Positions 5,645 to 56,456 of a stretch of DNA of 64,000 bases are shown one piece after another (positions within the stretch are counted from its first letter, which is position 1; each line of letters starts with the position of its first letter). Both the position numbers and the translations under genes were made by a program. Below the pieces are notes generated by a model. The model was given only the letters and a program-made list of their open reading frames with translations. It had not been told where the DNA came from and did no database searches. Origin of the DNA: Winogradskyella algicola (GTDB lineage Bacteria > Bacteroidota > Bacteroidia > Flavobacteriales > Flavobacteriaceae); assembly GCF_005869935.1 (NCBI RefSeq), contig NZ_SZQF01000006.1:124001-188000 (forward strand), read 5' to 3'.

Positions 5645-5707
5645 CGCTTATCGGTGGATATAAATCCTTCAAACAGATTCATATCCAAATCGTTGTGCAT
5701 AATATAG
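5645..5707. repeat. Left boundary element of a cassette-like unit (inverted repeat plus hairpin)
   Basis: CGCTTATCGGT (5645-5655) is the exact reverse complement of ACCGATAAGCG at 6539-6549. It is followed directly by a hairpin, GGATATAAATC (5656-5666) and GATTCATATCC (5676-5686), with one mismatch and a 9-base loop, then by GTTGTGCATA (5692-5701). A second copy of the hairpin part is at 14205-14235. The element ends about 11 bases before the lipoprotein start at 5718. Confidence 0.6.
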
Positions 5708-5717
5708 TCCTATAGCT

Positions 5718-6389
5718 ATGAAGAAAAAATTGATTTTTATTTTAATCCTTTTCACGGTAATATTTACGAGCTGTGAAAAAGAACCTCTGCCGGCTGATAT
5801 AGAAACTATAATTTTTGGTGAAATTTATGATTCAACGAATGATTTACCAATAATCAATAAGAAATTAAAGATAGCTGAGTTCAGAGAAATAAGTACGTTA
5901 TCCGGAGTTAGTTCAATTTTCAATGGATATATAGACTCAACATATACAAACATTAATGGGGCATACAATCTACCCTTCAAAACATCAGGAAATGGAAGTA
6001 GATACGTAATCCAAATTGAGTATAATAAAGAAGTTCATATTTTTGATTCCGACGAAACTATTCAAGATGAAATTATTGGACAACAGTTAGAATTAAATTT
6101 TGAGGCATTACAACTTTATCCAGTCGACTTAAGGGTAATTACTACAGATATAATAAATCAAGAAATTACAGTTTATCAACAATTCCCAGGTGGAATAACT
6201 GACAGAATACCACCTGCAACACAAAATTCTGTTAGAAGAATTTGGATTGATAAAAATATCGTAAATAATATTAACTTTAGTATTCGAGAACCAAACCCTA
6301 ACCTAAACTATGACATTGAAATTCCAATTAATGATACTACAGAATTATATGAATATGAAGTTGAAATAAATTCATCTGATTTTGAATAA
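5718..6389 (+). CDS. Lipoprotein of unknown function in an inverted-repeat-bounded unit
   Basis: 223 residues, beginning MKKKLIFILILFTVIFTSCEK: a lipoprotein signal with cysteine 19. The next part (EIYDSTNDLPIINKKLKIAEF, then INGAYNLPF) resembles the start of a carboxypeptidase-regulatory-like beta sandwich, which is a weak suggestion only. I do not recognise the family. The gene is the only one between the 11-bp inverted repeats at 5645 and 6539 and looks richer in A+T than its neighbours by eye. This suggests an inserted unit rather than a core gene. Confidence 0.7.
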   Translation: MKKKLIFILILFTVIFTSCEKEPLPADIETIIFGEIYDSTNDLPIINKKLKIAEFREISTLSGVSSIFNGYIDSTYTNINGAYNLPFKTSGNGSRYVIQIEYNKEVHIFDSDETIQDEIIGQQLELNFEALQLYPVDLRVITTDIINQEITVYQQFPGGITDRIPPATQNSVRRIWIDKNIVNNINFSIREPNPNLNYDIEIPINDTTELYEYEVEINSSDFE

Positions 6390-6393
6390 ATAC

Positions 6394-6549
6394 TATGTAC
6401 AACACGGTATAAAGCTCATAGCTAATTAGTTGTTCAAACGAAGTTAAGTGGTATTTGGAAATCGTCAAATTTAAAAATCTGGCTTGTGATTAATCCGAAA
6501 AATAATTGCTAATTTTCACGCAACAAGCCATACACAAAACCGATAAGCG
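6394..6549. repeat. Right boundary region of the cassette-like unit
   Basis: It begins TATGTACAAC (6394-6403), a 9-of-10 inverse match to GTTGTGCATA at 5692-5701, and ends ACCGATAAGCG (6539-6549), the exact inverse of 5645-5655. Between them are further pairings, for example GGCTTGT (6481-6487) with ACAAGCC (6523-6529). It holds no credible reading frame. The layout of two nested inverse matches plus internal stems resembles a recombination-site or attC-like structure. That is inference from shape only. Confidence 0.5.
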
Positions 6550-6580
6550 TAACAAAACCTCACCAATCCAAATAAAAGAC

Positions 6581-6723
6581 TATCTTTGCGCAAAAATTCG
6601 CGTATATTAAAGAAAACGCGAGAACCTCAGAGTGAGGTGTGTTACGAGAAGTTTTGGTTTAAGTATGTCGATACGCTTCTAATGTAACACTACATTAATT
6701 TATCGCATACATTAAATACAAGA
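6581..6723 (+). promoter_or_regulatory. Structured 5' leader of the DEAD-box helicase gene
   Basis: TATCTTTG at 6581-6588 fits the -7 consensus, although no TTG sits at the right distance upstream. It would give a leader of about 130 nt. Three stems follow in series: CGCGT (6599-6603) with ACGCG (6616-6620); ACCTCA (6624-6629) with TGAGGT (6633-6638); and GTGTTAC (6639-6645) with GTAACAC (6684-6690), the last enclosing AGAAG (6647-6651) with CTTCT (6676-6680). Long structured leaders are known on cold-shock helicase mRNAs. A regulatory role here is inferred. Confidence 0.55.
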
Positions 6724-8517
6724 ATGAGTACATTCCAAAACCTTGGTCTTAATGAAGACCTTCTTAATGGTATTTCAGATTTAGGATTTGAAACACCAAG
6801 TGAAATCCAACAAAAAGCAATTCCAGTATTATTAGAAGAAGAACGCGACCTAGTAGCATTGGCGCAAACTGGTACAGGAAAAACCGCAGCATTTGGTTTT
6901 CCGATGCTTCAAAAAATTGATATCAATAGCAGAACCACGCAAGGGCTTATCCTCTCACCTACCAGAGAATTATGTTTACAAATCACCAACGAGTTAAAAT
7001 TGTATGGTAAATACTGTAAAGGCCTAAACGTTGTTGCCATTTATGGTGGTGCAAGCGTAACAGACCAAGCCAAGCAGATTAAAAAGGGTGCACAAATTGT
7101 TGTTGCTACTCCTGGTCGTATGAAAGATATGATTAGCCGTAATCTGGTAGATATTTCTAAAATACAATACAGTGTTTTAGACGAAGCCGACGAAATGCTA
7201 AACATGGGCTTTTATGACGATATTACGGATATTTTATCACATACACCAATGGATAAAAGTACTTGGTTATTTTCTGCAACCATGCCAAAAGAGGTGGCTA
7301 CCATTGCAAAAGAGTTTATGTACGACCCAATTGAAATTACAGTGGGTAACAAAAACGAAAGTACAAGCAATGTTTCGCATGAGTATTATTTGGTTAATGG
7401 TCGTGATCGTTATTTGGCATTAAAACGTTTGGCAGATGCTAATCCTGATATTTTCTCGGTAATTTTCTGTAGAACAAAACGCGATACACAAAAGATTGCC
7501 GAAAAGCTTATTGAGGATGGTTACAGTGCTGGAGCATTACATGGTGATTTAAGCCAAAATCAACGTGATTTAGTTATGAAATCGTTTAGAAACAAGCAAA
7601 TACAAATGCTTGTGGCTACAGATGTTGCTGCACGTGGTATTGATGTTGATGATATTACACACGTTATCAATTACCAATTACCAGACGAAATAGAAACTTA
7701 CACACACCGTTCTGGTCGTACCGGTAGAGCAGGTAAAACTGGTGTTTCTATGGTCATTGTTGCTAAGAGCGAAGTACGAAAAATAAAAAGTATTGAGCGC
7801 ATCATTAAGAGACAGTTTGAAAAAAAAGATATTCCTTCTGGTATGGAAATCTGCGAGGTGCAATTAATGAACTTGGCCAATAAAATTCATAATACAGAAG
7901 TTAATCACGAGATTGATAAGTACTTAGACAGCATTAACGAACTGTTTGAAGACACTGAAAAGGATGAATTGATTAAAAAATTCTTTTCGGTTGAGTTTAC
8001 ACGTTTCTTTAACTACTATAAAAACTCTAAAGACCTTTCAGTTTCAGACTCTGGCCGTAGTAGTGATGATGGGGGAAGAGCCTCTGGCACAGACACACGC
8101 TACTTTATTAATGTTGGTCGTAAGGATGGTTATGACTGGATGTCTTTAAAGGATTTCTTAAAAGAAGTTTTAGAGCTTGGTAGAGATGATGTCTTTAAAG
8201 TTGATGTAAAGGATAGTTTTTCATTTTTCAACACCGAAAAAGAAAACGAAGAGAAAGTCTTAGCATTTTTTACGGACTTTAAGTATAATGGTCGCTTTGT
8301 TAATGTAGAGGTTAGCGAAAATAAAGGACGTAGTGGTGGCGGAAGACGCGACAGAAATCGTGGCGGAAAACGCAAAGGTAATGACAAATCTCGTGGTGAT
8401 AGACGTTCTAGACGCAGTAATGATTCTGGAAGACAAGATGGAAGACGTCCTGATAAATCCCCTAAAAAAGGGAGACGTTCTGCATCAGACAGACCACGCA
8501 GATCTAGAAGAAAATAA
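6724..8517 (+). CDS. DEAD-box ATP-dependent RNA helicase (CsdA/DeaD type) with DbpA-like RNA-binding domain
   Basis: 597 residues. The helicase core carries the Q motif (FETPSEIQQKAIP), Walker A AQTGTGKT (47-54), PTREL (79-83), DEAD (153-156), SAT (184-186) and HRSGRTGRAGKTG. After a helical segment, a DbpA/CsdA RNA-binding fold spans about residues 463-535 (YFINVGRKDGYDW to FVNVEVSENKGR). A very basic Gly/Arg/Lys/Ser tail of about 60 residues follows. Such enzymes unwind rRNA and mRNA in ribosome assembly and cold adaptation. It is a single-gene unit behind a structured leader. Helicase identity is certain; the exact orthologue is not. Confidence 0.95.
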   Translation: MSTFQNLGLNEDLLNGISDLGFETPSEIQQKAIPVLLEEERDLVALAQTGTGKTAAFGFPMLQKIDINSRTTQGLILSPTRELCLQITNELKLYGKYCKGLNVVAIYGGASVTDQAKQIKKGAQIVVATPGRMKDMISRNLVDISKIQYSVLDEADEMLNMGFYDDITDILSHTPMDKSTWLFSATMPKEVATIAKEFMYDPIEITVGNKNESTSNVSHEYYLVNGRDRYLALKRLADANPDIFSVIFCRTKRDTQKIAEKLIEDGYSAGALHGDLSQNQRDLVMKSFRNKQIQMLVATDVAARGIDVDDITHVINYQLPDEIETYTHRSGRTGRAGKTGVSMVIVAKSEVRKIKSIERIIKRQFEKKDIPSGMEICEVQLMNLANKIHNTEVNHEIDKYLDSINELFEDTEKDELIKKFFSVEFTRFFNYYKNSKDLSVSDSGRSSDDGGRASGTDTRYFINVGRKDGYDWMSLKDFLKEVLELGRDDVFKVDVKDSFSFFNTEKENEEKVLAFFTDFKYNGRFVNVEVSENKGRSGGGRRDRNRGGKRKGNDKSRGDRRSRRSNDSGRQDGRRPDKSPKKGRRSASDRPRRSRRK

Positions 8518-49391: not shown

Positions 49392-51218
49392 ATGGATTAC
49401 ATAAAAAAACTATCTCGATTTATTATTCCGTACAAACGTTACGGCATTTTAAATATAATCTCTAATATCTTTTACGCACTTTTTAGCACCTTGGCAATGA
49501 TATCTTTGATGCCTATGATTAACGTGTTATTTGGTGAAGGTAAAAAGGTAACAGAAAAACCAATATACCAAGGCATAAAAAATATTAAGTCTTATGCTGA
49601 AAACTCAATTAACTATTTAATTACAACAACATCAGAGCAATATGGAGCGCAACGTTCATTGTTATATATGATTATTCTAATAATAAGTCTTTTTTTATTA
49701 AAGAACCTTTTTAATTATTTGGGATTATACTTTATCACGTTTTTACGCAACGGAGTACTAAAAGATCTTAGAAATGAAATCTATAATAAAGTTACCCATT
49801 TACCAATATCGTATTATTCTGAAAAAAAGAAAGGTGATATTATAGCCCGAATTTCAGGTGATGTAAATGAAGTAAAAAACTCATTATTAGCTATTTTAGA
49901 ACTTATTGTAAAGGAGCCTTTAACCATCTTATTTGCAATTATTGCGATGTTTATGATATCTGTTAAGCTCACAATTTTTGTCTTTCTTTTTATTCCTATA
50001 TCAGGTTTTATAATCTCAAGAATAGGTAAAAGTTTAAAGAAAAAATCAAACAGAGTTCAGACAGAGCAAGGTGTTTTTCTTTCCACTTTAGAAGAAACCT
50101 TGAGTGGCCTAAAGGTTATAAAAGGATTTAATGCAGAAAAAAGATTTAATGACGAGTTTCAAAAATCCACCAACCGTTTTTATAATTTTTCTAATACTTT
50201 GATGAATCGTCAAAATCTAGCATCTCCAACAAGTGAAGTTTTGGGTATTATAACCATAGCTGTTTTACTGTGGTATGGAGGTAGCATGGTACTAGTAGAT
50301 AAAACTTTATCAGGTGGCGCCTTTATTGGCTATATAGGTTTAGCTTGGCAAATTCTTACACCAGCAAAAGCTATTAGTAAAGCTAGCTATAAAGTTAAAG
50401 CAGGTAATGCAGCAGCAGATCGTGTATTAGAAATTCTTAATACAGAATCACCTCTTAAAGATAAGCCAGACGCAAAAGTGAAATTAGATTTCACATCTCA
50501 ACTTAGTATAGAAAATATTTCATTTAAGTACGAAGAAGATTATGTGCTCAAAAACTTCAATCTTAATGTACCAAAAGGAAAAAGTGTTGCTTTAGTTGGC
50601 CAGTCTGGTAGTGGAAAAAGTACCATTGCTAATCTTGTAACACGATTTTACGATGTTAACGAAGGAAGTATCTCTATTGATGGAGAAAACATAAAAGACC
50701 TCACAAAACATTCCTTACGCAACTTAATGGGACTTGTAACACAAGATTCCATTTTATTCAATGACACTATTAAAAACAATGTGTTATTAGGTAAAGAAGA
50801 TGCTACAGATGATGAGATTATCGACGCCTTAAAGATTGCCAATGCATGGGAGTTTGTAAAAGAATTGCCTATGGGTATTAACACTAATATTGGAGATTCT
50901 GGTAATAAACTCTCTGGTGGCCAAAAACAGCGCTTGAGTATTGCTAGAGCTGTGCTGAAAAATCCGCCTATCATGATTTTAGATGAAGCAACTTCAGCCT
51001 TAGATACAGAAAGTGAGCGCTTAGTTCAAGATGCACTAGAGAACATGATGAAAAACAGAACTTCTATTGTTATAGCACATAGACTTTCAACAATACAAAA
51101 TGCAGACTTAATTGTGGTTATGCAAAAAGGTGAAATTGCTGAACAAGGCTCACACTCAGAACTAATTGCAAAAAATGGGGTTTACAAAAAACTTGTGGAA
51201 ATGCAGAGTTTTGACTAG
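49392..51218 (+). CDS. MsbA-like ABC exporter (fused permease and ATPase)
   Basis: 608 residues. An N-terminal six-helix membrane domain (to about 340) with a large extracytoplasmic loop, then the ATPase: Walker A GQSGSGKST (about 403-411), Q-loop VTQDSILFND, signature KLSGGQKQR (about 507-515), Walker B IMILDEATSALD and HRLSTI. In this form it would flip a lipid, such as lipid A or an undecaprenyl-linked product. It is the last gene of the cluster with the mutase and lies convergent with the 51699 gene. Confidence 0.93.
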   Translation: MDYIKKLSRFIIPYKRYGILNIISNIFYALFSTLAMISLMPMINVLFGEGKKVTEKPIYQGIKNIKSYAENSINYLITTTSEQYGAQRSLLYMIILIISLFLLKNLFNYLGLYFITFLRNGVLKDLRNEIYNKVTHLPISYYSEKKKGDIIARISGDVNEVKNSLLAILELIVKEPLTILFAIIAMFMISVKLTIFVFLFIPISGFIISRIGKSLKKKSNRVQTEQGVFLSTLEETLSGLKVIKGFNAEKRFNDEFQKSTNRFYNFSNTLMNRQNLASPTSEVLGIITIAVLLWYGGSMVLVDKTLSGGAFIGYIGLAWQILTPAKAISKASYKVKAGNAAADRVLEILNTESPLKDKPDAKVKLDFTSQLSIENISFKYEEDYVLKNFNLNVPKGKSVALVGQSGSGKSTIANLVTRFYDVNEGSISIDGENIKDLTKHSLRNLMGLVTQDSILFNDTIKNNVLLGKEDATDDEIIDALKIANAWEFVKELPMGINTNIGDSGNKLSGGQKQRLSIARAVLKNPPIMILDEATSALDTESERLVQDALENMMKNRTSIVIAHRLSTIQNADLIVVMQKGEIAEQGSHSELIAKNGVYKKLVEMQSFD

Positions 51219-51231
51219 CTTCAAAATAAAA

Positions 51232-51699
51232 CTAAAGCAAACCAAAAAAATAGGTCCAATTAGCACCATCACTAATTACAATAACACTTTTACGTAAATC
51301 ACTACCGCTTTCATAAAGATATATCTCATTTGAACCACTTGTAGTACTACCTGAAGAAAATAACTGACCTGTCTCAGTAACTATTTTGGCTGTTACTGTG
51401 TTTGTTGAATTTACATTTCTAATAAAGTACACTCGTCCTGGAACCTCCGAAGGATCAGGTAATTCAAAAGTATCATCTTGAACCTGAGGATTAATTGAAA
51501 TATAAACACCATCATCTATTTCTACAGTTGTACCTGCATTTGTCTGATTACCTGTGCTATTTCCAGTTAAGCTAACAACTTTTACAGATAAGTTACCATT
51601 AATATCCAAAGTACTTTGTGGATTATCTGTATTAATACCTACTTGTGCAAAAATACATGTGGTAAAAACCAGTGAAAAGAGTAGGGAATAAATTTTCAT
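51232..51699 (-). CDS. Secreted Flavobacteriia-type protein with VGINTDNP N-terminal motif
   Basis: 155 residues with a signal peptide (cleavage near IFAQ). The mature N-terminus VGINTDNPQSTLDINGNLSV is the recurrent 'GI-T-NP--TLD--G' motif seen at the start of many Bacteroidota surface proteins that resemble phage-tail adhesins. A beta-rich body follows, ending SDGANWTYFFGLL. No C-terminal T9SS domain. Function unknown. The candidate small RNA and its promoter lie upstream on the same strand. Confidence 0.75.
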   Translation of the reverse strand: MKIYSLLFSLVFTTCIFAQVGINTDNPQSTLDINGNLSVKVVSLTGNSTGNQTNAGTTVEIDDGVYISINPQVQDDTFELPDPSEVPGRVYFIRNVNSTNTVTAKIVTETGQLFSSGSTTSGSNEIYLYESGSDLRKSVIVISDGANWTYFFGLL

Positions 51700-51811: not shown

Positions 51812-51894
51812 TTAAAAAAGGATGCATGTAAGACACACATCCTTCATTTTTGTTACCAGATTTGGGGAAACTGATAACAGTTAATAGGTTAAGC
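51812..51894 (-). ncRNA. Candidate small RNA (about 83 nt)
   Basis: On the minus strand a promoter (51900-51931) is followed by a hairpin at 51852-51878: GTTATCAG pairs with CTGGTAAC, extended by TTT/AAA around a CCCC loop with one bulged T. A second hairpin at 51818-51844 (AAGGATG / CATCCTT) ends in a run of six T, which is an intrinsic terminator. No gene on this strand lies upstream of it, so the terminator needs its own transcript. No open frame fits inside. It could instead be an attenuated leader of the 51699 gene. Confidence 0.55.
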
Positions 51895-51899
51895 TGTGT

Positions 51900-51931
51900 C
51901 AAACATATAACAAATAAATCTACAAAACAAG
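51900..51931 (-). promoter_or_regulatory. Promoter of the candidate small RNA
   Basis: Minus strand CTTG (51928-51931), 20 bases, TATGTTTG (51900-51907). It fits TTG-N19/20-TAnnTTTG. Predicted transcription start is near 51894. Confidence 0.6.
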
Positions 51932-51938
51932 AAAAAAA

Positions 51939-51970
51939 TGCTTTTTATCGTATTTATTTGCTTTTTATCG
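51939..51970. promoter_or_regulatory. Tandem repeat upstream of the small RNA promoter (putative activator site)
   Basis: CGATAAAAAGCA (minus strand) occurs twice, at 51959-51970 and 51939-51950, exactly 20 bases apart (two helical turns). The nearer copy ends seven bases before the -33 element, where an activator that contacts RNA polymerase would bind. Read on the plus strand it is also about 120 bases upstream of the sigma gene. Confidence 0.55.
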
Positions 51971-52086: not shown

Positions 52087-52629
52087 TTGATAAACGAAAC
52101 GGATTTCATATTACGTCTCAAAGATCCTAAATCTAAAGAAGCCGCTTTTAGAGAACTTCTAAGTCTCTATAAAGAACGTCTGTATTGGCATATCCGAAAG
52201 ATTGTAATTTCTCATGATGATGCAGATGATGTGTTACAAAATACATTCATTAAAGTATATCGTAGTATAGATAAATTTAAAGGAGACAGTAAGCTATACT
52301 CTTGGTTATATCGCATTGCTACAAACGAATCCATCACTCATATCAATAGAAATGCCAAACGTATGCAAATTACTAATGAGGAACACCAAAATTTAGCTAT
52401 CAATAACCTTACTGCAGATATTTACTTTGAAGGTGATGAAATTCAGCTAAAATTACAAAAGGCTATAGCGTCACTTCCACAAAAACAGCAACTCGTTTTC
52501 AATATGAAATATTTTGACGATCTTAAATACAAAGAAATTGCAGAAATTTTAGAAACCAGTGAGGGAGCTTTAAAGGCCTCATACCATATAGCAGTAAAAA
52601 AAATAGAGAGCTTTTTAAGTTCAGATTAA
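52087..52629 (+). CDS. ECF-type RNA polymerase sigma factor
   Basis: 180 residues: region 2 (FRELLSLYKERLYWHIRKIVISHDDADDVLQNTFIKVYRSI, YSWLYRIATNESI) and region 4 (SLPQKQQLVFNMKYFDDLKYKEIAEILETSEGALKASYHIAVKKI). The frame has an upstream stop at 52042-52044 and no ATG before the conserved part, so the start is TTG at 52087. First gene of a sigma / membrane partner / Spy-like operon (52087-53695). Confidence 0.93.
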   Translation: MINETDFILRLKDPKSKEAAFRELLSLYKERLYWHIRKIVISHDDADDVLQNTFIKVYRSIDKFKGDSKLYSWLYRIATNESITHINRNAKRMQITNEEHQNLAINNLTADIYFEGDEIQLKLQKAIASLPQKQQLVFNMKYFDDLKYKEIAEILETSEGALKASYHIAVKKIESFLSSD

Positions 52630-52685: not shown

Positions 52686-53186
52686 GTGAAAAAAGAAAAA
52701 TTACATAATATTAAATCTAGTGGTTTTAAAACACCAGAGAATTACTTTAATACTTTTGACGACAAACTCTTTGAACGTCTTAACATTAAAGAGAATATTG
52801 AAGGTGTCACTGATTCTGGTTTTACAACACCAAAGGATTATTTTGAAACGTTAGATGACAAAATTTTAAGTAAGTTAGAGGACAAGCCTGTTGTTAGACT
52901 TAATACCAGCAAAACCTTATACTATATAGCTGGTATTGCAGCTTCTCTTCTATTATTATTTGCGATTTTCATAAACAATGGTGGCGAAACCCAAGTGTTA
53001 TCTGCAGAAATGGTTGAAACGTACTTTGAAAACAGTGATTTAGACAGCTATGAGTTGGCTGAATTATTAGTTGAAGCAGATTTTCTTGAAGAAGATTTTA
53101 CTATAGTAGAAACCGAATACAAAGAAGAAAACTTAGAGTCATACCTTTTAGAAAACACAGATATTGAAACAATTTTACAACAGTAA
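52686..53186 (+). CDS. Membrane partner of sigma factor (putative anti-sigma) with a duplicated N-terminal motif
   Basis: 166 residues; GTG start. Two tandem copies of a short unit open the protein: SGFKTPENYFNTFDDKLFERL (12-32) and SGFTTPKDYFETLDDKILSKL (44-64). One membrane helix (YYIAGIAASLLLLFAIFI) and an acidic periplasmic tail follow. Its place between sigma factor and Spy-like gene suggests it holds the sigma factor at the membrane; this is inferred. Confidence 0.65.
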   Translation: MKKEKLHNIKSSGFKTPENYFNTFDDKLFERLNIKENIEGVTDSGFTTPKDYFETLDDKILSKLEDKPVVRLNTSKTLYYIAGIAASLLLLFAIFINNGGETQVLSAEMVETYFENSDLDSYELAELLVEADFLEEDFTIVETEYKEENLESYLLENTDIETILQQ

Positions 53187-55060: not shown

Positions 55061-55516
55061 TCAATCTCTTTTTTTAGATTTCCCTCTTTTTCCACGACGC
55101 TCTATAGCATCATTTATAATTTTAGAAAGTTGTTCTTTCTGCTTATCGTTACATATTTCCCTAACATCTCTAAAATGCTTATACATTTCTAAGTCTTTGT
55201 TTTTCTCTTCTAGTGCAATTAAATCTACTACAGAATCTAATAAAGCCTCTGATATGTCCTGTTCGCCTACATTAGAATATATTTCCTTTTTAAGCTCACT
55301 TATTCTTTTAGAATAGGATTTCATCTTATCAAAATGCTTACTTCTTAGTGCCTTGTAAGTCTCTTGCTGCTCTTGGTTAAAGTTTAATTCTTCAATCATA
55401 GAAAAACGAGACTTATGGTCTTTATGCCCAAATCTTCCTACATGATGAAAAATAAAAAACACATTAGACAGAAAAAGTACAATGAGTAGTATGTATAAAA
55501 CAGTTTGCTTTTTCAT
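55061..55516 (-). CDS. Spy/CpxP-like periplasmic protein
   Basis: 151 residues. An N-terminal membrane or signal helix (VLYILLIVLFLSNVFFIFHHV) precedes a helical, charged body: RFSMIEELNFNQEQQETYKALRSKHFDKMKSYSKRISELKKEIY, ending in basic residues (RRGKRGKSKKRD). Pattern like the heavy-metal or stress sensors of the CnrR/Spy group. Last gene of the 56456-55061 operon. Confidence 0.75.
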   Translation of the reverse strand: MKKQTVLYILLIVLFLSNVFFIFHHVGRFGHKDHKSRFSMIEELNFNQEQQETYKALRSKHFDKMKSYSKRISELKKEIYSNVGEQDISEALLDSVVDLIALEEKNKDLEMYKHFRDVREICNDKQKEQLSKIINDAIERRGKRGKSKKRD

Positions 55517-55522
55517 GTTTAA

Positions 55523-55834
55523 TTAATTAAAAATAGAAGTATACGCCTCATCACCAAAATCATAAGTGTCAACAAATTCTTCAACTGTTGAGTTGTACTC
55601 TTCAGAAATCAATACTTTGTATGCATATATGTTGAGTAAAACAACAACCACCAATGTTGCGATCTGAAACTTAGGAGTAAACCAAGCCCAAACCCTTTCA
55701 GTTTCTTCGTTCTCAACGTTTAAATTGTTCAGTATTCTATCCTTAAGAAAAGGAGACACCTTTACCTCTTGGATAGTATCTACAGCATTTAGCGTAGTGT
55801 TTACTTTTTTCTTAATCTCAGAATCTTTCATCAT
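55523..55834 (-). CDS. Small membrane protein partner of sigma factor (putative anti-sigma)
   Basis: 103 residues; cytoplasmic N-terminal part (TIQEVKVSPFLKDRILNNL), one membrane helix (FQIATLVVVVLLNIYAYKVL) and a short acidic tail. There is no classical anti-sigma zinc motif. It lies between sigma factor and Spy-like gene, so an anti-sigma role is inferred from place and topology. Confidence 0.65.
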   Translation of the reverse strand: MMKDSEIKKKVNTTLNAVDTIQEVKVSPFLKDRILNNLNVENEETERVWAWFTPKFQIATLVVVVLLNIYAYKVLISEEYNSTVEEFVDTYDFGDEAYTSIFN

Positions 55835-55877
55835 AAATCATTTGATATTTAGATGCATAAGTTTTAAAAAACTTGTG

Positions 55878-56456
55878 CTACATTTCGTTTTTGTAATAGT
55901 CATACAATAACTGTTGAAGGTTTTTCTTTGCCCTAAACATAAGAGACTCAACAGAAGACACACTTTTATCTGTTATAGCTGCAATTTCCTGATAACTTTT
56001 ACCATCAATCTTATGCAATGTAAAAACCGAAGCCTGACTTTCTGGCAAACTGTTAATAGCCTTAAACAGTGTTTCGTTTAGTTCTTTGTTTTCTAATAAA
56101 AATCCAGGATGGTTAAACTCAGTAAAATAATTAGTCTTGTCTATTGAAAAATCTTCACTAAACAATGGTTTTAAAAAACCCGTGCGCTTTTTAGTATTCC
56201 TTTTTCTTATGAACTCCAAGCACTTATTTGTGGTAATTTTATAAATCCATGTTGAGAGTTTAGAGTTTCCCTTAAATTTAGAGATGGAATTATAGACTTC
56301 TAAAAATACTTCTTGTACTAAATCCTCCGCATCTTCCTTGTTTGGCACAAAAGAAATACAAGTACCAAAAACCTTTTGCTGATAATCATCTATAAGTTGA
56401 GAAAATACAGCTGTATTTCTTCTTTTTAGTTCTTTTATGGTTTCTTTTTCCTCCAA
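55878..56456 (-). CDS. ECF-type RNA polymerase sigma factor
   Basis: 192 residues. Region 2: FSQLIDDYQQKVFGTCISFVPNKEDAEDLVQEVFLEVYNSISKF, STWIYKITTNKCLEF; region 4: SLPESQASVFTLHKIDGKSYQEIAAITDKSVSSVESLMFRAKKNL. First gene of the operon sigma / partner / Spy-like, with the same layout as 52087-53695 but reading towards it. Confidence 0.93.
   Translation of the reverse strand: MEEKETIKELKRRNTAVFSQLIDDYQQKVFGTCISFVPNKEDAEDLVQEVFLEVYNSISKFKGNSKLSTWIYKITTNKCLEFIRKRNTKKRTGFLKPLFSEDFSIDKTNYFTEFNHPGFLLENKELNETLFKAINSLPESQASVFTLHKIDGKSYQEIAAITDKSVSSVESLMFRAKKNLQQLLYDYYKNEM

Follow-up and report, generated by a model that had tools for sequence, protein, structure and literature searches.

The window, by which the whole 64-kb stretch of Winogradskyella DNA under analysis is meant, harbors on the minus strand (51814-51970) a compact cassette composed of a pair of CGATAAAAAGCA boxes, a sigma-A promoter of the Bacteroidota type and a predicted RNA of about 82 nt that folds into two hairpins and ends in a T-tail (Table 1). 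The boxes lie 20 bp apart, start to start, and the proximal one is followed by seven T residues and then by CTTG, which an N20 spacer separates from TATGTTTG; the accessible part of PMC9723704 gives TAnnTTTG as the consensus of the sigma-A type -7 element. Direct reading of the minus strand gave the boxes, promoter and hairpins within a base or two of the places that an earlier sequence-only reading had assigned to them. That reading was also right about hairpin 1 and its CCCC loop, whereas the 11 pairs counted there become 9 in the minimum-energy fold (13 bases being paired in hairpin 2), since 11 would need an inner UUU/AAA with a bulge.

Table 1. Features of the cassette and its neighbours, with positions in the window
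Feature	Position	Strand	Basis or remark
Distal regulator box CGATAAAAAGCA	51959..51970	-	exact match
Proximal regulator box CGATAAAAAGCA	51939..51950	-	exact match; pair also found elsewhere in the own genome and in the genus
-33 element CTTG	51928..51931	-	read in the sequence; geometry across loci
-7 element TATGTTTG, sigma-A type TAnnTTTG	51900..51907	-	20 nt from TTG
Likely transcription start, at A/G of AGCTTAACC	51895/51894	-	predicted
Small RNA gene, about 82 nt	51814..51895	-	ends predicted; fold, alignment, covariation, model search
Conserved unpaired 5' segment AGCTTAACCTATTAA	51881..51895	-	GCTTAACCTA invariant in 30/30 genus copies
Hairpin 1, loop UUUCCCCAAA	51852..51878	-	CCCC at 51867-51864; fold, covariation, CCCCAA conservation
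Hairpin 2 and T-run, intrinsic terminator	51814..51844	-	paired part 51844-51818; T-run to 51814
ECF sigma factor gene, divergent neighbour	52087..52629	+	profile, synteny
Second gene of sigma operon, 166 aa, putative anti-sigma	52686..53186	+	no Pfam match; assigned by position
Third gene of sigma operon, 151 aa	53240..53695	+	secreted, CpxP/Spy-like by eye only
ABC transporter, convergent conserved neighbour	49392..51218	+	synteny
Secreted-protein gene, 155 aa	51232..51699	-	in this place only in some Winogradskyella; outside the RNA unit
Possible ECF-type promoter of sigma operon, TTAAACTTTT-N13-GTCTAA	52041..52069	+	putative; similar sequence in relatives

The arrangement of boxes, promoter and hairpins is exact and beyond chance. 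At up to 3 mismatches the tandem box has a single occurrence in the window and none in 100 shuffles, and the 83-nt RNA folds with -24.3 kcal/mol (z = -6.5), a value equalled by none of 200 shuffled sequences. By sequence, the unit has its own promoter, a short structured RNA and an intrinsic terminator, with no long open reading frame. As had been read from the sequence, no gene-like listed ORF of the minus strand runs into the terminator, and the site lies upstream of a stress-type sigma operon whose ECF gene diverges from the RNA. A generic terminator scan reported no terminator at the position of hairpin 2, and the sigma-70 scan used does not cover the promoter type seen at the RNA; despite this miss of the terminator scan, hairpin 2 with its T-tail is kept in all 30 aligned copies of the genus.

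Conservation in Winogradskyella and other Flavobacteriaceae

The Flavobacteriaceae are a widespread marine and animal-associated family whose small RNAs are, to our knowledge, little charted. No publication on this RNA was found in the open-access library searched. The suggested comparison with Rfam, Flavo-1 included, was negative: a covariance search (E up to 10) returned five weak matches, none of them on the RNA, and the loci of four relatives gave no match at the gathering score. The Flavo-1 motif, mentioned in the accessible part of PMC9723704, is likewise a flavobacterial structured RNA and differs from the present one in this lack of a match.

A DNA search of 60 relatives found long matches in most genus-mates, and 30 RNA copies from 29 genus genomes were aligned, a short box-only match (L030) being excluded. 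Within the loop of hairpin 1, CCCAA is invariant in the 30 copies, with the full CCCCAA in 29 and TCCCAA in the remaining one. RNAalifold recovers both hairpins from this alignment and both covary across the genus, so that the expected conservation and compensatory changes were indeed found in relatives: two-sided changes occur in 9 of the 20 base pairs, a level that 0 of 500 shuffles reach, and they amount to 28 cells where shuffling gives 6.4 on average, the structures used for covariation counts having been derived, here and below, from the same alignments. Paired cells amount to 97% in the genus alignment and to 37-51% once the partners are slid.

With a covariance model (R1), a strong match (E <= 4.1e-11) was obtained in 55 of 68 genus genomes and weak matches only, up to E 0.01, in five further ones. 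In a separate model search, which took in the genus g21 treated below, eight weak matches (L068-L070, L072-L074, L076, L078) look like chance terminators without boxes and were dropped, as were the truncated L075 and L077 and also L079. Among the 13 genus genomes without a strong match, nine hold an orthologue of the ECF gene and the other four are 73-83% complete. In seven of these nine, box and RNA are both missing and the end of the ABC transporter gene comes close to the region upstream of the ECF gene, and the remaining two have a transposase-like ORF in the slot or a contig edge there. The transposase-like ORF, recognized by eye, occupies the very slot where the RNA would stand (L466, G079:C119). 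Conversely, one genus genome (G033) carries two tandem copies of the cassette.

Beyond the genus, where the sequence of the RNA has diverged, named genomes were scanned for the box-promoter pattern, which gave at least 80 rows, many of them in unrelated phyla and resembling chance, and 44 chosen loci of Flavobacteriaceae/Bacteroidota were read. Among the matches listed, the same architecture is found in Mangrovimonas, Algibacter, Hyunsoonleella, Flaviramulus (two loci, one ending before the RNA), Yeosuana, Mariniflexile, Seonamhaeicola, Jejuia, Psychroserpens, Hanstruepera, Gaetbulibacter, Subsaxibacter, Flavivirga and an Ulvibacter assembly. None of the 43 RNAs aligned across genera departs from the CCCCAA loop; AACCTA of the 5' segment recurs in most RNAs of other genera, which carry AACCTACTTATG and GTTAGTC..CCCCAAG..CTAAC, and the clade of alignment A4 has a second CCCAA in the terminator loop of 20 of its 24 RNAs. 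Covariation was counted per clade because hairpin 1 of the different clades is not brought into register in the MAFFT alignment A3, where RNAalifold finds only the terminator. The second clade has two-sided changes in 5 of its 19 pairs, which 0 of 500 shuffles reach; most of these pairs belong to the terminator, and hairpin 1 contributes one.

Among 397 genomes of the family, a second covariance model (R2) matched 113, from 79 of 237 genera, at E <= 1e-3 and 83 at E < 1e-6; a script checked box, loop and neighbours in 29 newly fetched loci, and not every weak match need be genuine. The heavily sampled genus g21, suspected to be Flavobacterium, gave one weak match, L076, apparently a chance terminator, and none of the 12 ECF orthologues read in it is preceded, within 520 nt, by an RNA with CCCCAA. 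Over 111 loci of distinct promoter-to-loop sequence, whose figures describe geometry and not presence because the regular expression that chose them presupposes box, promoter and loop, TTG stands 20 nt from the -7 element in 106, the boxes are 20 or 21 bp apart in 109, and the loop of hairpin 1 reads CCCCAA in 109 and TCCCAA in 2. In Aquimarina pacifica (L165, NZ_JACC01000012.1; about 5700-8000, minus strand) at least nine tandem units of about 262 bp follow each other at distances of 261-274 bp, each of them comprising a promoter with one clear box, hairpins with C-rich loops and a terminator; the array ends beside an ABC transporter gene, the same slot as elsewhere. This array and the tandem copies of G033 indicate that the cassette can multiply.

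On these comparisons, the box pair, the sigma-A promoter, the two-hairpin RNA of about 80 nt and the terminator form one cassette that is inherited, or absent, as a unit between an ABC transporter gene and an ECF sigma gene, and the RNA represents a genuine small RNA family that stands on its own and has no entry in Rfam. In 20 family genomes picked from those lacking the RNA, the ECF orthologue has no ABC neighbour in the fetched stretch in 15 and has it directly in 4, and one of the 20 (L231) has a lone terminator-like remnant. It follows that gain, or repeated loss, affected the cassette as a whole.

The tandem box and its candidate regulator

The expectation that further tandem boxes would be found in the genome held: six sites occur in it at up to 3 mismatches. 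Allowing up to 2 mismatches, between one and eight sites were counted in 63 of the 68 genus genomes, and the reversed pattern gave none in the own genome or in any of the 68. A subset of 104 sites (4 from the own genome plus 40 and 60 from genus genomes) was analysed. The box is often located just upstream of surface-protein genes, and most box-adjacent genes begin with an apparent signal peptide (by eye). By profile, they include GldK (TIGR03525, over cut-off, L310), DUF6588 (L081), a CAP domain (L283), an M14 peptidase (L282), Fer4_19 (L313) and a SixA-like histidine phosphatase (L082) that is below the NCBIfam cut-off and over that of Pfam for His_Phos_1; the remaining box-adjacent genes run against profiles gave no match. 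In three Winogradskyella genomes (L310, L405, L409) a tandem box stands about 91 nt upstream of gldK, the gene of the T9SS ring lipoprotein, the profile having been run on L310 only and the other two assigned by BLAST grouping. Nine of ten genomes from ten other genera also have sites, before genes that by eye are DUF6588-, CAP-type lipoprotein- or phosphatase-like.

At 49 of 70 box-adjacent genes the box has the opposite orientation to that at the RNA. The RNA and the box regulon are separable, because RNA-less genus genomes mostly retain boxes (for example G007, G067 and G001), with none in G008 and G079. Differing surface-protein genes (L420, L425, L428-L433) were also seen to share a start of about 100 bp comprising box, promoter and leader, with a signal-peptide-like beginning, as if this module had been shuffled among them.

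In the accessible part of PMC4847170, LytTR sites are described as paired repeats, each 9-11 nt long, separated by 11-13 nt. The boxes of the cassette measure 12 bp with a period of 20-21 bp, and the LytTR spacing fits if their core is about 9 nt. As in YpdB/LytTR sites, two direct repeats stand about two helical turns apart, and the GGCATTTCAT of YpdB, reversed, reads ATGAAATGCC, close to the box variant CGATGAAATGCA (PMC4847170, accessible part); the present tandem box differs in being used in both orientations and in having a regulator of candidate type only. Twelve LytTR domains over cut-off are encoded in the own genome, and no regulator was linked to the box by synteny. The box regulator is most likely a response regulator of the LytTR type, a link that is a lead rather than a demonstration.

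Possible action of the RNA

The sequence-only reading had proposed that an activator controls an RNA of about 83 nt whose C-rich loop is exposed, and the support for this, comparative in kind, comes from the conservation, the compensatory changes, the constant promoter geometry, the near-invariant CCCCAA and the recurrence of the box across the genome. We judge it probable that the cassette at 51814-51970 represents a small RNA gene in its own right in the Flavobacteriaceae, activated through the boxes and acting in trans through its unpaired parts. Points that count against this reading are the miss of the generic terminator scan, the lack of a synteny link between the box and any regulator, the opposite box orientation at most box-adjacent genes, the unusable target list described below and the boxes that RNA-less genus genomes retain. 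A candidate response regulator of the LytTR type would bind both boxes beside the -33 element and turn the RNA on together with a few surface, secretion and envelope genes bearing the same box, and the RNA would then act in trans via its conserved unpaired parts: the 5' segment with AACCUA and the loop CCCCAA, of which the terminator loop often has a second copy. Box-dependent activation of the RNA is likely, the invariance of the CCCC loops suggests that action passes through them, and the RNA is probably tied to the control of surface and secreted proteins. It is a widespread RNA in a nearly fixed slot beside an ECF sigma operon, preceded by a readable regulator box, and the same box marks the T9SS ring gene gldK (in the three genomes read) and many surface-type proteins; the covariance models and the exact cassette make this putative flavobacterial circuit of regulator, small RNA and surface proteins directly testable.

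As to how the RNA might act, antisense pairing of the C-rich loops with G-rich mRNA stretches has about an even chance of being correct, capture of an RNA-binding factor is possible at a clearly lower probability, and other modes take up the rest. In four genomes, ATTTGGGG occurs just upstream of ATG 47-74 times each against 8-15 for the reversed sequence, which gave no usable target list, many of the matches listed looking like Ile-Trp-Gly codons. Shine-Dalgarno regions are largely missing in Bacteroidota.

The RNA resembles in several respects LhrC1-5 of Listeria monocytogenes, which the accessible part of PMC4132741 describes as multicopy hairpin RNAs with a repeated C-rich loop motif, terminator loop included, under two-component-system control and linked to the cell envelope, whose UCCC targets Shine-Dalgarno regions. 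In both cases a short hairpin RNA exposes a C-rich motif at unpaired loop positions, which in Winogradskyella means a single loop and in 20/24 RNAs of the other clade two, and tandem copies are found in some flavobacterial genomes (G033, A. pacifica) as LhrC multiplied in Listeria. The flavobacterial RNA differs in its usually single copy, its CCCCAA core and its promoter and regulator, so far as that source describes LhrC, and the likeness is functional, with no claim of sequence kinship. Rfp18 of Flavobacterium psychrophilum, which according to the accessible part of PMC9723704 pairs through its third stem-loop and is tied to secreted proteases, is also a structured Flavobacteriaceae small RNA conserved beyond one species; it has at least three stem-loops as opposed to two hairpins here, which by that description would set it apart.

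Another reading concerns the leaders of the box genes, many of which resemble TTTTAGTCCCAAACTAAACTTAACCGCTTATG, as in the own-genome example L425. CCCAAA/CCCCAA was counted in the leaders of 20 of the 70 box genes and of 5 of the 90 remaining genes of the same loci (Fisher p = 7e-5) and, by protein family, in 8 of 32 against 4 of 48 (p = 0.04), and AACC within 20 nt of ATG in 31 of 70 against 6 of 90 and, by family (majority of members), in 10 of 32 against 2 of 48 (p = 0.001), p-values that are optimistic because the motif had been noticed in those leaders before being counted. Among the ORFs of the window, 0 of 51 have CCCAAA/CCCCAA and 5 of 51 have AACC near ATG. The RNA and the leaders carry the motif in the same sense and therefore cannot pair with each other through it, which makes a common partner an interesting reading: an RNA-binding factor would read the C-rich loop in the leaders of box-regulated surface-protein mRNAs, and the box-driven small RNA would soak it up. 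Besides the enrichment, the likeness of the L425 leader to the AACCTACTTATG and GTTAGTC..CCCCAAG..CTAAC of other-genus RNAs favors such a decoy, and titration would fit both the motif in two loops in one clade and the tandem copies of A. pacifica. Against it, only part of the box genes carry the motif, several leader families are paralogues, so that the family counts decide and these are weak, and pairing around the motif reaches p <= 0.05 in only 4 of 20 leaders. Moreover, CCCAAACTAA before ATG is only 1.5 times as frequent genus-wide as its reversed control (332 vs 215, 68 genomes), the order of the elements differs between RNA and mRNA, there is no candidate factor, and some RNA-less genomes keep boxes and such leaders (for example L298, L362, L371 and L402). 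The decoy is thus regarded as tentative and rather doubtful, and a Csr-like titration circuit in the Flavobacteriaceae, in which one box would drive both the C-rich-leader mRNAs for surface and secretion proteins and a small RNA competing for an RNA-binding factor, as unlikely and more speculative still. In the own genome, four of the five matches of CCCAAACTAA before ATG look like chance and were set aside (L422, L423, L424, L426).

Neighbouring genes and other readings of the locus

The surroundings of the RNA are nearly constant. In 103 of 108 loci the divergent ECF gene begins at a distance of 200-255 nt from the loop (the exceptions being L089, L123, L131, L150 and L153), and the 3' end of a convergent ABC transporter gene is located within 250 nt in 97 of 106. 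This constant distance to the ECF start would agree with a DNA control region for the divergent operon whose transcript is incidental, a reading that we hold to be improbable in view of the compensatory stem changes, the near-invariant loop and the conserved terminator, and because ECF genes without the cassette retain an upstream element of their own. Many genomes (L231-L250, L460-L468), RNA-less ones included, have TTAAACTTTT or TTAAACCTTTT followed by a sequence like GTCTAA ahead of the ECF gene; this element is possibly the promoter of the sigma factor itself.

The alternative also put forward in the sequence-only reading, that of a terminating leader (attenuator) of the gene at 51232-51699, is more improbable yet. 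The gene is on the same strand, about 115 nt downstream and with no gene in between; even so, a match to its product is found in only 7 of 104 distinct RNA loci with at least 700 nt downstream, three of the matches being longer than 100 aa (de-duplication removes a few further loci with a match, such as L010). RNA and gene are therefore not conserved together, the end of the ABC transporter gene usually following elsewhere, and the terminator persists in every aligned genus copy. The clean absence of the cassette from seven Winogradskyella, together with the lack of the 51232-51699 gene at most RNA loci, argues for an independent small RNA gene and not a leader. A small peptide encoded by the RNA, to which an ATG within AACCTACTTATG in several other genera might point, was rejected as the least probable reading of all, since 28 of 30 genus RNAs have no closed ORF of at least 10 codons and no shared frame was seen by eye.

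The 155-aa protein located between transporter and RNA is secreted and without a Pfam match; only its first 33 or so residues are matched in several relatives, which suggests a modular surface-protein start. A second sigma operon lies nearby in the window (55061-56456, minus strand), and by eye it encodes an ECF-like sigma factor, a small membrane protein and a Spy-like protein.
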